Assembly: GCA_003166865.1 (NCBI GenBank)
Contig: PMUP01000051.1
Location: 43,419 to 107,418 of the forward strand
Direction of reading: 5' to 3'
Origin: Bryobacterales bacterium
Lineage (GTDB): Bacteria > Acidobacteriota > Terriglobia > Bryobacterales > Bryobacteraceae
DNA length: 64,000 bases
Part shown: positions 23,934-28,032 of the stretch, piece by piece
How the letters are laid out: every line of letters starts with the position of its first letter
Numbering within the stretch: the stretch's first letter is position 1
Translations under genes and position numbers: made by a program
Notes under the pieces: generated by a model
The model's database searches: none
Seen by the model: the letters and a program-made list of their open reading frames with translations, nothing else
What the model was told of the DNA's origin: nothing

Positions 23934-26150
23934 TTATTCCTGATCGAACAGTTCCGATCGGCTGATGCGCCCGCCTTTCAGAAACACCGCCTGAATGCTT
24001 TCAATCTGCTTGATGTCCTTGAGCGGATTGCCATCCACCAGCAAAAGCGTCGCTTCGTGTCCTTCTTTGACCAGACCAATCCGATCCGAGGCGCGCAACA
24101 GACGCGCCGCATTGTAAGTCGCGGCCTGCAGCGCCACTGCCGGCGGCAAACCCGCCTCCACCCACAGCTCCACTTCGCGTTCGATGGTGGGCCCGTGCAA
24201 CACCAGCGGATTACCCGCGTCGCTCCCGGTGACCAGCGTGACGCCGGCTTGCCAGGCCGCCACCAGATTTCGTTTTGCGATCCCCAGATCTATTCCATAT
24301 TTCTTGAGAGACTCGCCCATCTTCAGGCCGTCCGCCGATTGCAGAAACTTCTTCGAGGAATCGATCAGCCCCGGCGGCGCCACTTGCAAAACCAGAGGCC
24401 GCTCCAGCGGCTCCAGGCTGCCGTTTGCTGCGTCGGTGAATCCCTCCCACGCTGACATGGTTGGATCGTAGGTCACGCCGCCAGCCTTCATCTGCTCGAA
24501 AAGCGCCAGTGGGATCTCATCGCGCGACGATCCGTGCTCGATCCCGTTCACTCCCGCGCCCAGCGCATCGGCAACATCGCGCGAGTCTCCCGTGTGAACC
24601 ACAATCGGCAGCGCCTTGGCGCGCGCCTCCGCTGCCACCGCGCGAAAAACCGCCACATCCATTCGCTGGAACACAAAGCCGTTCTGTCCGGCCTCCAGAA
24701 TCGCCTTGATGCCGTCCACGCCGATCTGCTTCAGCGCATCCACCTGCTGCCGGGCTTCCTCCGGCGTACCCGGCGTGCGCACGATTTGAGCTTCGGCGGC
24801 CTTCCGATATGCCTCCGGAATGTAGCGAAGATACTCGGTGCCATGGCCACCCGGCGCCGTAAACATCGGACCAACCGCGAAAAGCTGTGCGCCCAGGCGC
24901 TCGCCGGAATTCACCAGCATGCGCGTCTTCAGAATGTCGTCCAACGGATCGCCAACGCTCTTCACCGCGGTGATCCCGCTGTAAAGATACGCGGCCAGTG
25001 CGCGCGGCATGGTCTTGCTATTCACATACGCGTCGGCGGATTGCGAGAATCCTCCGGGCGAGCTCAGGTGCACGTGCACGTCGATCAAACCTGGCAGCAC
25101 CGTCTTGCCTGCAGCCTCCACCGCCTCGGCGTGCAACTGCTTCGGATCGGGCGCCTCTCCTTCGTACACATGCTCGATCTTGCCGTTCTTGATCAGCACC
25201 GCGCCCGATTCGATCACGCGCCCGTCGCCCACGAAGATGCGCGCCCCGCGAATCAGCAGCGTGCGGCTCTGCTCGAATTGACGCTCCAGCAGTTTCGACT
25301 GCACAATGCTTTCCCTGCTGTGGGCTTGATACACGCCCAACACCAGGAACGGCGCAAGCACCGCCAGCAGCCACAGCTTGGCCGAGCCGGCGACCTTTTC
25401 TTCCTTTTCCCAGCGAAACAGCTTCACTCCCAGAAAAGTTGCCAGCACCGTGGTGAGGATCAGCGCCCCGGCCCCGGATGTGTTTTGCGCCAGCGTCTCG
25501 TTCTTCCCCACGATCGCTTGCATTCCATTCACCAGGTATGTCGACGGGATAAACTGCGCCACCAATTGCAGCCAATTCGGGAAGACGCTGATCGGAATCG
25601 TCATGCCGCTCAGGAACAGCATCGGAAAATACAGCATCTGAATTACGATCTGGCTTTCCTGCGCCGAGTTCACCACCGAGGCGATCATCAGCCCCAGTCC
25701 GCGAAACGCCAGCACTCCCAGCGAGATGAACACCAGTAGCGAGATCCAGCGCCGCGGAAATTCCATGCCGTAGATGAAGTGCGACAGCAGAATCATCAGC
25801 AGTGCCGAAGGAAGAAAGTTCAGCACGCCGGTGAGCAAGGACGCCACCAGCATGGGCGCGGCCGATATGGGCGCCACTTTGAACCGCCGCAGGATGTTCG
25901 CCTCGCGATCCTGTACCGCGCGGATTCCGGCACCGAAGAAACCAATCCCAAGAATCCCGATGCTCAGCACCATGGTGAGAACTTGAATGATCGCGCCGCC
26001 CTGCTCCGCATGGAACAATGTCGCGAAGATGAAAAAGAAAATCAGCGGGAACAGGTAGTTGAAAAAGATGACGGTCCTGTCCCGGTACGTCAGCTTGAGA
26101 TTGATCTCCGCCTGCGCCAGAAAGCCCTTTGTCATCTGCCCCAGCATCAT
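23934..26150 (-). CDS. ABC-2 type permease fused to a metal-dependent amidohydrolase
   Basis: 738 residues in one uninterrupted frame. Residues 1-250 are an ABC-2 (DrrB/YadH-like) permease with six membrane helices and the AVQDREANILRRFKVAPI loop. A seventh helix (about 258-275) follows, then an amidohydrolase (about 297-738) with metal and catalytic residues DVHVH (His359, His361), a candidate carboxylated Lys482 in DGIKAILEAG, His519, IEHGS (His539) and GSDAG (Asp644). With a cytoplasmic N-terminus, seven helices would place the enzyme in the periplasm (inference). The ATG at 26150 overlaps the ATPase stop (ATGA); the longer frame to 26249 lies inside the ATPase gene. This fusion is unusual; the substrate is unknown. 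Confidence 0.88.
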   Translation of the reverse strand: MMLGQMTKGFLAQAEINLKLTYRDRTVIFFNYLFPLIFFFIFATLFHAEQGGAIIQVLTMVLSIGILGIGFFGAGIRAVQDREANILRRFKVAPISAAPMLVASLLTGVLNFLPSALLMILLSHFIYGMEFPRRWISLLVFISLGVLAFRGLGLMIASVVNSAQESQIVIQMLYFPMLFLSGMTIPISVFPNWLQLVAQFIPSTYLVNGMQAIVGKNETLAQNTSGAGALILTTVLATFLGVKLFRWEKEEKVAGSAKLWLLAVLAPFLVLGVYQAHSRESIVQSKLLERQFEQSRTLLIRGARIFVGDGRVIESGAVLIKNGKIEHVYEGEAPDPKQLHAEAVEAAGKTVLPGLIDVHVHLSSPGGFSQSADAYVNSKTMPRALAAYLYSGITAVKSVGDPLDDILKTRMLVNSGERLGAQLFAVGPMFTAPGGHGTEYLRYIPEAYRKAAEAQIVRTPGTPEEARQQVDALKQIGVDGIKAILEAGQNGFVFQRMDVAVFRAVAAEARAKALPIVVHTGDSRDVADALGAGVNGIEHGSSRDEIPLALFEQMKAGGVTYDPTMSAWEGFTDAANGSLEPLERPLVLQVAPPGLIDSSKKFLQSADGLKMGESLKKYGIDLGIAKRNLVAAWQAGVTLVTGSDAGNPLVLHGPTIEREVELWVEAGLPPAVALQAATYNAARLLRASDRIGLVKEGHEATLLLVDGNPLKDIKQIESIQAVFLKGGRISRSELFDQE

Positions 26151-27079
26151 TCGCGCAGCCTCTTGCCGGTCAGCTCGATGAACACATCTTCGAGCGTCGG
26201 CCGCTTCAAGTGAATATCGGCCAGCCCGATGCCCAGTTGATCGATCCACTTCACCAATTCAACGATGGTCCGGGCCGGGTGCTCGGAATGCATTGTGAGC
26301 GATTTCCGGTCGTCCGAAAACGCGTGCTTCTCCGAGGTAAGAAACGCAGGCAGGCTCTCTGCGGGCACAGGTTGCTCGCATTCGATCTCAATGCGGCTTT
26401 GCCCCAGCGTGCGCTGCTGGATTTCGCGCGGGGTTCCGATCTCGATGATGCGTCCTTCATCGATGATGGCCACCCGGTCGCACACCCGTTCTGCCTCCTC
26501 GATATAGTGCGTGGTAAGCAGAATGGTGCGCTGGGCGTCGCGCAGCTCCTGAATCAGGCCGTGAATTTCCAGGCGGATTTGGGGGTCCAGGCCGCTGGTG
26601 GGCTCATCCAGAAACAGCAGCTGCGGATCGTTGATCAGGGCCAGCGCCAGTGCCACGCGCTGCTTCTGTCCGCCCGAAAGTTTCGAGTAATACTCGTCCC
26701 GCTTATCGCTGAGTTGGAGCCGCTCCAACAGCTTGTTGCGATCCACCTGATGCGAATAGAAGGACGCGAACAGCGCCAGCGCCTCGTGCACCTTGATCTT
26801 TTCCGGTAAGTTTGTCGCCTGCAGGCAAACGCCGATGCGGTCCTTGATTTCGCGCGCCTGGATGCCCGGATCAAGGCCCAATACCAGCGCCTCTCCGGAG
26901 CTGCGCGGCCGCAGGCCTTCCAGAATCTCGATGGTGGTTGTCTTGCCCGCGCCGTTCGGCCCCAGCAGGCCGAAGACCTCTCCCGCGCGCACTTCAAAAT
27001 CGACGCCGCGCACCGCTTCGAAGGTCCCGTAAAACTTGCGAAGTCCTCTTACGGAGATGACGGAGCCGTTGCCGTTCAA
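26147..27079 (-). CDS. ABC transporter ATP-binding protein
   Basis: 310 residues. Walker A GPNGAGKTT (40-48), the Q-loop LQATN, the signature LSGGQ (134-138), Walker B LLFLDEP (Glu159 catalytic) and the H-loop TTHYIEE are all intact. The C-terminal 80 residues form the DUF4162-like tail typical of DrrA/CcmA-type exporters. It powers the ABC-2 permease encoded by the immediately downstream gene, with which it overlaps by ATGA. The pair should form an exporter; the cargo is unknown. Confidence 0.95.
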   Translation of the reverse strand: MNGNGSVISVRGLRKFYGTFEAVRGVDFEVRAGEVFGLLGPNGAGKTTTIEILEGLRPRSSGEALVLGLDPGIQAREIKDRIGVCLQATNLPEKIKVHEALALFASFYSHQVDRNKLLERLQLSDKRDEYYSKLSGGQKQRVALALALINDPQLLFLDEPTSGLDPQIRLEIHGLIQELRDAQRTILLTTHYIEEAERVCDRVAIIDEGRIIEIGTPREIQQRTLGQSRIEIECEQPVPAESLPAFLTSEKHAFSDDRKSLTMHSEHPARTIVELVKWIDQLGIGLADIHLKRPTLEDVFIELTGKRLRE

Positions 27080-27086
27080 GCAGTAC

Positions 27087-27965
27087 TCAGTCTAGCAGCC
27101 GCTCCCGCACCGCGTTATACTCGCAGCCGAACAGCGAAATCACAGCCAGCACGTACATCCAAACCACCAACGCAATCACCGCGCCGATGCTGCCATACAG
27201 GACGTCGTAGTTGGCGATGTGCCGCACGTACAGCCCGAACAAGGTCGTCGCCAGCAGCCATAACACGGTGGCCAGAATCGCGCCCGGCAACACGCTGTGG
27301 AACTTGATCGGCCGGTTCGGGCCGGTGTGGTACATCAACCCGGTGACCAGTACGATGGCCGTGAGCGCCACCACATAACGCAGCAGGCCGAAAGCCAGGA
27401 TCACGGAGGTCCTCAAGTCTTCTTCCGGCGCCAGGCCGAGCGTCGCCAGCATCCACTGCTCCACGCGCGCGCCGAACACGATGAGCACCGAGGAGCCAAC
27501 CGCCGGCAGCGCCGCGATGAACACCAGCACAATCGCCACGCCGCGTTGCTTCAGGAATGGACGGCCCGATGGCAGCCGGTACGCCGCATCGAATCCTTCC
27601 ATGAGCGTCATCATCGCGCCGGAAGCCGCGAACGTCGAAAACAGCGTGGCCGACAGGATCAGCCAGGCGGACTTGTTCTGAGCCGTGAAGTGCGACCGCA
27701 CCAGCTCCTCGGTGCCCGGCGGTATCACCTGGAACAAAAGCCGGGAAAACACGCGCGCCACTGCATTGGCATTGACGCTCGCAAGGATCGCGGCCAGCGA
27801 CGCCAGCACCGGAAAGAACGCCAGCAGCGAGGAGTAGGCCGCCCCCTTGGCGATGCCGAAGCAATTGTCCTCGTAAGAGGCGATCGAGGCCTGACGAAAC
27901 AAGCCCCAAAAGCGCTGTACCGGGCCCGGGCGCTGCAGATAGAGGCTGGGAGGAGTTGAGATCAT
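27087..27965 (-). CDS. YihY/BrkB family inner-membrane protein
   Basis: 292 residues with about six membrane helices and the YihY/BrkB family hallmark segments: AAYSSLLAFFPVL near the N-terminus, GSIGAVIALVVWMYVLAVISL and a final FGCEYNAV near the C-terminus. The family was once mis-annotated as ribonuclease BN; its true function is unclear. ATG at 27965 is used; an in-frame TTG at 27971 is less likely. It lies 7 bp upstream of the ABC ATPase gene on the same strand, so the three genes probably form one transcript. Confidence 0.9.
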   Translation of the reverse strand: MISTPPSLYLQRPGPVQRFWGLFRQASIASYEDNCFGIAKGAAYSSLLAFFPVLASLAAILASVNANAVARVFSRLLFQVIPPGTEELVRSHFTAQNKSAWLILSATLFSTFAASGAMMTLMEGFDAAYRLPSGRPFLKQRGVAIVLVFIAALPAVGSSVLIVFGARVEQWMLATLGLAPEEDLRTSVILAFGLLRYVVALTAIVLVTGLMYHTGPNRPIKFHSVLPGAILATVLWLLATTLFGLYVRHIANYDVLYGSIGAVIALVVWMYVLAVISLFGCEYNAVRERLLD

Positions 27966-28032
27966 GCCCAACTTATTCTAATAAACAGCGCTCGACGCCG
28001 TTTCAGAGACCTGGCCAAGACTGCAATCCCAG

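Follow-up and report, generated by a model that had tools for sequence, protein, structure and literature searches.

An ABC-2 permease fused to an amidohydrolase is conserved in Bryobacteraceae, with repeated loss of the enzyme's metal ligands

We analysed a window of 64,000 nucleotides from a Bryobacterales bacterium (contig PMUP01000051.1, positions 43,419 to 107,418 of the forward strand). Its minus strand carries a gene in which an ABC-2 permease, a seventh hydrophobic helix, a linker and an amidohydrolase follow one another in one frame, preceded by genes for an ABC ATPase and a BrkB/YihY-family membrane protein (Table 1). The frame has zero internal stops across its 738 residues, the Amidohydro_1 match spans residues 350-726 (85.2 bits, cut-off 25), and all six metal ligands are there (H359, H361, K482, H519, H539 and D644). 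Translation, Pfam and the ligand table thus bear out an earlier note, made from the sequence alone, that had described an uninterrupted permease, seventh helix and amidohydrolase with the metal ligands placed; the ATGA overlap that it reported is likewise present at 26150-26147, where the TGA of the ATPase gene overlaps the ATG of the fusion. The brkB stop (27089-27087) lies 7 nt from the TTG start of the ATPase gene at 27079. As in an ABC-2 exporter, permease and ATPase both score above their Pfam cut-offs and their genes are adjacent, and the C-terminal part qualifies as a member of the amidohydrolase superfamily by its above-cut-off Amidohydro_1 match and complete set of ligands.

Table 1. 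Features of the fusion locus, in positions of the window.
Feature	Position	Strand	Evidence
Fusion gene: ABC-2 permease, TM7, linker and amidohydrolase, 738 aa	23934..26150	-	Translation, Pfam
ABC2_membrane domain, residues 17-213	25512..26102	-	Pfam PF01061, 90 bits (cut-off 26.9)
TM7, the seventh hydrophobic helix; follows the FRWEKEEK loop and spans roughly residues 257-277 (limits judged by eye)	25320..25382	-	Hydropathy peak 261-270
Linker, residues 278-295, with R290 and the Arg column at 294 (Q in the window copy)	25266..25319	-	Alignment
Amidohydrolase domain with all six metal ligands, residues 296-738	23937..25265	-	Pfam PF01979
Barrel core, residues 426-565, holding K482, H519 and H539	24456..24875	-	Mostly gone in 36 shortened homologues
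DrrA-like ABC ATPase gene, TTG start, ATGA overlap with the fusion	26147..27079	-	ABC_tran, 105.8 bits
BrkB/YihY-family membrane protein gene	27087..27971	-	Pfam PF03631

The system shares its permease and ATPase domains, and the ATPase-permease order in one operon, with DrrAB/NodIJ-type ABC-2 exporters; the best-scoring model is drrA for the window ATPase and, among exporter models, drrB for the permease part. Unlike DrrAB, it adds a seventh helix and a C-terminal amidohydrolase, and neither protein reaches the cut-off of the daunorubicin-type subfamilies (drrA TIGR01188, 271.6 vs 312.45 bits; drrB TIGR01247, 64.5 vs 223.05 bits). The amidohydrolase domain is complete (HxH, K, H, H, D), as in the Xaa-Pro dipeptidase, Cc2672 and imidazolonepropionase-like amidohydrolases, and its best solved relatives include PDB 2qs8 (1.5e-30) and 3mtw. 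It differs from the Xaa-Pro dipeptidase-like group in being joined to a permease instead of exported by itself and in having homologues that have often lost ligands, and with 178.3 bits it stays below the cut-off of 500 for Xaa-Pro dipeptidase itself (NCBIfam NF051886). Amidohydrolases of the same type, 39-40% identical to that of the window, occur with a C-terminal CIA30 domain, for instance in the unfused protein L304 and the fused protein L287. The latter has the permease-TM7-amidohydrolase order of the window protein, which itself lacks CIA30 by Pfam. Bacteroidota have fusions of an ABC permease to an M1 aminopeptidase, which also join a permease and a hydrolase but differ in both the hydrolase and the permease family.

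We searched Acidobacteriota genomes and a plasmid collection for the fusion and found that it recurs, a point that the earlier note had wanted checked. Among the soil bacteria of the family, a related permease (E ≤ 1e-15) is present in 162 of 237 Bryobacteraceae genomes, three of these matches being far weaker and possibly paralogues (G107, G192, G259). The note had held that the fusion would be an accident or an error if relatives all had separate permease and amidohydrolase genes; instead, 152 of the 156 distinct Bryobacteraceae loci read are fused. Since the fused frames come from 46 genera and also stand in genomes of 1 to 4 contigs (G208, G209, G250, G012, G256, G163), the fusion is neither chance nor an assembly error but an old and kept join. 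The four loci that are not fused comprise a gene that would be fused but for a split in its frame (L072, genome G002), an in-frame TAG near the junction (L111, G261) and two permease frames that stop shortly past TM7, with the amidohydrolase absent (L073 and L237). The frame breaks in the otherwise fused genes L072, L111 and L175 (G115) may be assembly errors or young pseudogenes. The plasmid collection yielded 12 weak hits to the junction query, and in none of these records did a match reach 80% coverage of the query. A search for related loci in a collection of genome contigs gave one locus, L039, which carries no information on spread.

The ATPase gene travels with the permease. Of 186 permease loci, from the family and beyond, six were removed as duplicates (L039, L042, L043, L045, L162, L178); 173 of the remaining 180 have a same-strand ATPase upstream, 164 of them at a distance of at most 60 nt. 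In five of the seven loci lacking one, less than 300 nt can be read upstream; L269 and L238 extend 3.6 and 4.2 kb in that direction and have no ATPase match within 1.5 kb. The fused permease of L238 and its full copy L162 (G216) is divergent (43% identical), and the amidohydrolase joined to it is of full size but lacks two ligands, K482 and H539.

A typical ABC-2 permease has six helices and a cytoplasmic C-terminus. The family average of the fusion is predicted to depart from this type, with seven main hydropathy peaks, of which the last is at 261-270. When the helices are delimited by eye, the loops before TM1 (K+R 5.2), between TM2 and TM3 (4.0) and between TM6 and TM7 (mean 3.8) are rich in lysine and arginine, and those between TM1 and TM2 (0.6) and between TM3 and TM4 (0.1) are poor in them; the segment past TM7 is likewise rich (3.6), which counts against a clear call of its side of the membrane. 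Of 25 permease rows that lack an amidohydrolase, 24 also show the seventh helix, and the remaining one is frameshifted. Among unfused amidohydrolase relatives, 23 of 25 have a hydrophobic N-terminal stretch just ahead of the domain, and seven of the 25 show a lipobox-like motif. Such stretches are those of exported proteins and make a periplasmic side likely; the loop charges, apart from the segment past TM7, fit a cytoplasmic N-terminus and a periplasmic C-terminus for the fusion. The seven helices counted in the earlier note are thus upheld by hydropathy, and the periplasmic orientation of its enzyme is likely on hydropathy, charge and the N-termini of unfused relatives. An AlphaFold2 model with the window protein and one orthologue (L039) reached a mean pLDDT of 38 and a pTM of 0.24 and was left unused.

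Outside Bryobacteraceae, we read 23 permease loci from the relatives and class searches, and their C-termini vary. Thirteen stop shortly past TM7, at 285-325 aa. Eight have frames of 467-492 aa (L269-L274, L281, L285), and Pfam found CIA30 in both of those scanned (L269 and L281). Two, from family f6, also match the amidohydrolase: L267, which Pfam reads as permease-amidohydrolase-CIA30, and its near copy L268. A further locus, L279 (f9), was set aside; it resembles a Bryobacteraceae contig, in a genome with 9% contamination, and was not counted as a separate case. A phylum sample of 396 genomes added a permease-TM7-amidohydrolase-CIA30 protein outside the class (L287) and a divergent permease-amidohydrolase (L290, 25-27%). 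In L295, L300 and L301, an ABC-2 permease of this kind continues into a linker rich in proline and then another C-terminal region, which has no Pfam name in L301, the one scanned. L276-L278 (f11, g138) are unfused permease orthologues, 51-55% identical to that of the window, that nest among Bryobacteraceae in a FastTree phylogeny, for which transfer followed by loss of the amidohydrolase is a possible history.

The amidohydrolase tree argues for separate origins of the Bryobacteraceae and f6 fusions. L267 and L268 group with the unfused L321 and L323 (support 100), and a single amidohydrolase clade of the Bryobacteraceae and f6 fusions was rejected by the AU test (p = 4.2e-5; 1.7e-4 with L287 added), for groups named after a first tree had been seen and with the long branch L335 removed beforehand. 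Together, these two results indicate at least two origins of the fusion, involving different amidohydrolases.

We then scored the metal ligands in 147 of the 152 fused family proteins, five being cut by contig ends (L170, L171, L173, L174, L227). All six ligands are intact in 86 of the 147, and at least one is lost in 61. The earlier note had proposed that cargo could be processed on exit; as a general rule this does not hold, since fusion and frame persist in the 61 proteins with ligand loss. These degenerate proteins divide into 23 of full size and 38 shortened ones (fewer than 230 residues where the window protein has 299), two of which, L175 and L187, may be broken genes. Leaving L162 outside the count, 32 of 60 degenerate proteins have lost all six ligands. 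A second alignment agreed on the ligand call in 149 of 151 rows and again gave 86 intact, and an alignment-free search with four strict motifs found all four in 72 of the 86 intact proteins and in none of the 60 degenerate ones (L162 again outside the set). Walker A, LSGG and Walker B are all found in 164 of 173 ATPase rows overall and in 55 of the 59 that accompany a degenerate domain.

On the best tree, built from ATPase and permease with the C-terminal domain excluded (143 rows), the catalytic state changes 21 times, 17 of them forced by well-supported (starred) branches, and the short state changes 14 times, 10 of them forced; these counts carry no direction. We infer that the direction was loss because unfused relatives and the fusions outside the family have intact ligands: 30 of 30 unfused Bryobacteraceae amidohydrolases scored (the best 29 of a ranked list plus the query, hence biased to one query's close relatives, with the query copy L338 excluded), 23 of 25 in a wider unfused set and four of four fusions from outside. 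Live and degenerate versions mix within a single genus in six of 46 genera; L061, from a congener of the window organism, has lost ligands, and L182 and L231 are examples of shortened versions. Shortened versions are common to every member read in several genera (five in g44, eight in g47, four in g12 and three in g90) and also stand in genomes of 1-3 contigs (G208, G209, G250, G256).

What remains of the domain is constrained. To compare intact, full-size degenerate and shortened proteins, we used a three-class alignment that left out L175, L187 and edge-cut rows and whose 85 intact rows include L279. The 36 shortened proteins mostly miss residues 426-565, and with them K482, H519 and H539. 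The arginines at 290, at the 294 column and at 731 are kept at 96-100% in all three classes; the first two lie in the junction region whose conservation the earlier note had wanted checked. The named positions of the HGPxxxxExxL helix stand at 82-100% in the same three classes, and the strands of the sandwich are filled in each of them. Within the 85 intact rows, G434, G435, H436, T438 and E439 are conserved at 81-100% and may be active-site residues.

We calculated dN/dS for 35 pairs hand-picked among near tree neighbours, some of which share a member. For the C-terminal domain, the median was 0.165 (range 0.06-0.23) in 19 degenerate pairs and 0.101 (range 0.06-0.26) in the 15 of 16 intact pairs that could be measured, the one without a C-domain dS being skipped; permease medians were 0.091 and 0.083, respectively. 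The degenerate C-terminal domain is somewhat relaxed yet clearly under purifying selection. Ligand loss with open frames and continued selection points to a role of the fused domain that does not need catalysis, and catalysis is probably not all that the domain contributes to the pump.

The genes around the operon were also compared. The commonest neighbour upstream is a DJ-1/PfpI-family gene (TIGR01382, 165.8 bits, cut-off 139.05), which precedes the ATPase gene on the same strand in 53 of 138 loci able to show it, from 20 genera; another 42 loci do not extend far enough. The operon repeatedly has this PfpI/DJ-1 deglycase-family gene as its third member, as in L044, L061, L066 and others. It is absent from the window operon; elsewhere in the window genome, just two genes are weakly related to it (31% and 34%). 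In two congeners, G002 and G003, the order is brkB-pfpI-ATPase-fusion, so brkB probably came to adjoin the ATPase gene in the window through loss of pfpI. Upstream sequence of 2.6 kb or more, enough to judge the presence of brkB itself, is available for 30 family loci, the other 126 being too short; three of the 30 have brkB, namely the window and the two congeners, all of one genus. The idea that brkB belongs to the operon, raised in the earlier note, is therefore weak, and brkB is probably not part of the system. PfpI presence was associated with a dead amidohydrolase in a raw Fisher test (p = 5e-5, 108 rows), but pairs chosen to be phylogenetically independent showed no significant association (median p of 0.625 and 0.375), and we do not claim it.

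We read the architecture, its conservation, the repeated ligand loss and the purifying selection as those of a seven-helix exporter with a periplasmic gate or docking module derived from an amidohydrolase, for which catalysis is optional; we put the chances of this reading at about even. The exporter, of DrrAB type, would be a homodimer of half-transporters, each made of an ATPase and a fused permease, and the seventh helix would bring each permease C-terminus to the periplasm. An exported amidohydrolase would have been captured at that C-terminus, the permease taking the place of its signal peptide. The constant part (the linker, the composite beta-sandwich and the last barrel helices) would form a periplasmic module over the exit that serves for docking or gating. 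An optional extra would be the metal-dependent barrel, intact in about three fifths of the proteins, including that of the window; in these, it probably acts as a hydrolase on the exported compound or on a related amide. In the others it would have decayed repeatedly until, in the extreme, most of it was excised, with the module retained. Against the gate reading, the larger group keeps all six ligands, so catalysis matters there, and the domain is absent from L073, L237 and the 13 outside loci that stop past TM7, so the transporter can do without it; a further point against is that one degenerate member (G216) shows no ATPase match in the nearest 1.5 kb upstream.

A tentative alternative, which we hold to be roughly half as probable, is that export and processing are coupled, with the amidohydrolase cleaving the cargo as it leaves and the 61 decayed copies marking lineages in which the cargo changed or the hydrolase moved to another gene. 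The 86 intact proteins, the conserved G434, G435, H436, T438 and E439 of the intact rows and the ATGA coupling of the operon all agree with this, but the fusion was kept through 21 changes of catalytic state, decayed domains are still under purifying selection, and the unfused amidohydrolases among the matches listed are at most 37% identical, which offers no obvious replacement gene. Coupled processing and a structural role may both hold, in different lineages. It is rather improbable that the permease merely tethers a secreted amidohydrolase as a cheap periplasmic anchor, replacing a lipoprotein or signal anchor while the two functions are unrelated: the hydrophobic N-termini and lipobox-like motifs of unfused relatives would suit such a tether, as would at least two fusion events with different amidohydrolases, but domains with dead ligands should then be deleted, and their remainder is conserved instead. 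It is very improbable that the family is simply one of active fused enzymes whose degenerate members are pseudogenes or products of faulty assembly, for the few broken copies (L072, L111, L175) stand against shortened versions with open frames and C-domain dN/dS of 0.06-0.23, shared by every member read of several genera and found in genomes of 1-3 contigs.

A broader reading is that a captured periplasmic enzyme became a non-catalytic exporter part more than 12 times in one family, often with the same middle of the barrel excised and the beta-sandwich shell kept, and that TM7 is a general mount that has come to carry an amidohydrolase, an amidohydrolase with CIA30, CIA30 or an unnamed domain; we are evenly divided on this broader claim. 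It would be a large case of repeated conversion of an enzyme into a pseudoenzyme within a fixed architecture, useful for asking which part of the fold a transporter needs. Where an enzyme domain sits on an ABC exporter, one must ask whether export and hydrolysis are coupled, and closely related exporters with a live, a dead or a shortened domain are natural controls that make the coupling directly testable. The component families are known; among the listed titles and abstract openings of open-licence PMC papers we found no description of the permease-amidohydrolase architecture with repeated pseudoenzyme conversion, which weakly hints that the combination is new. Finally, one contig (L324:1508-4117, genome G871) has a frame of 869 aa in which an MFS transporter, recognised by eye, runs into a secreted-type amidohydrolase; this one case is possibly a second kind of transporter-amidohydrolase fusion.
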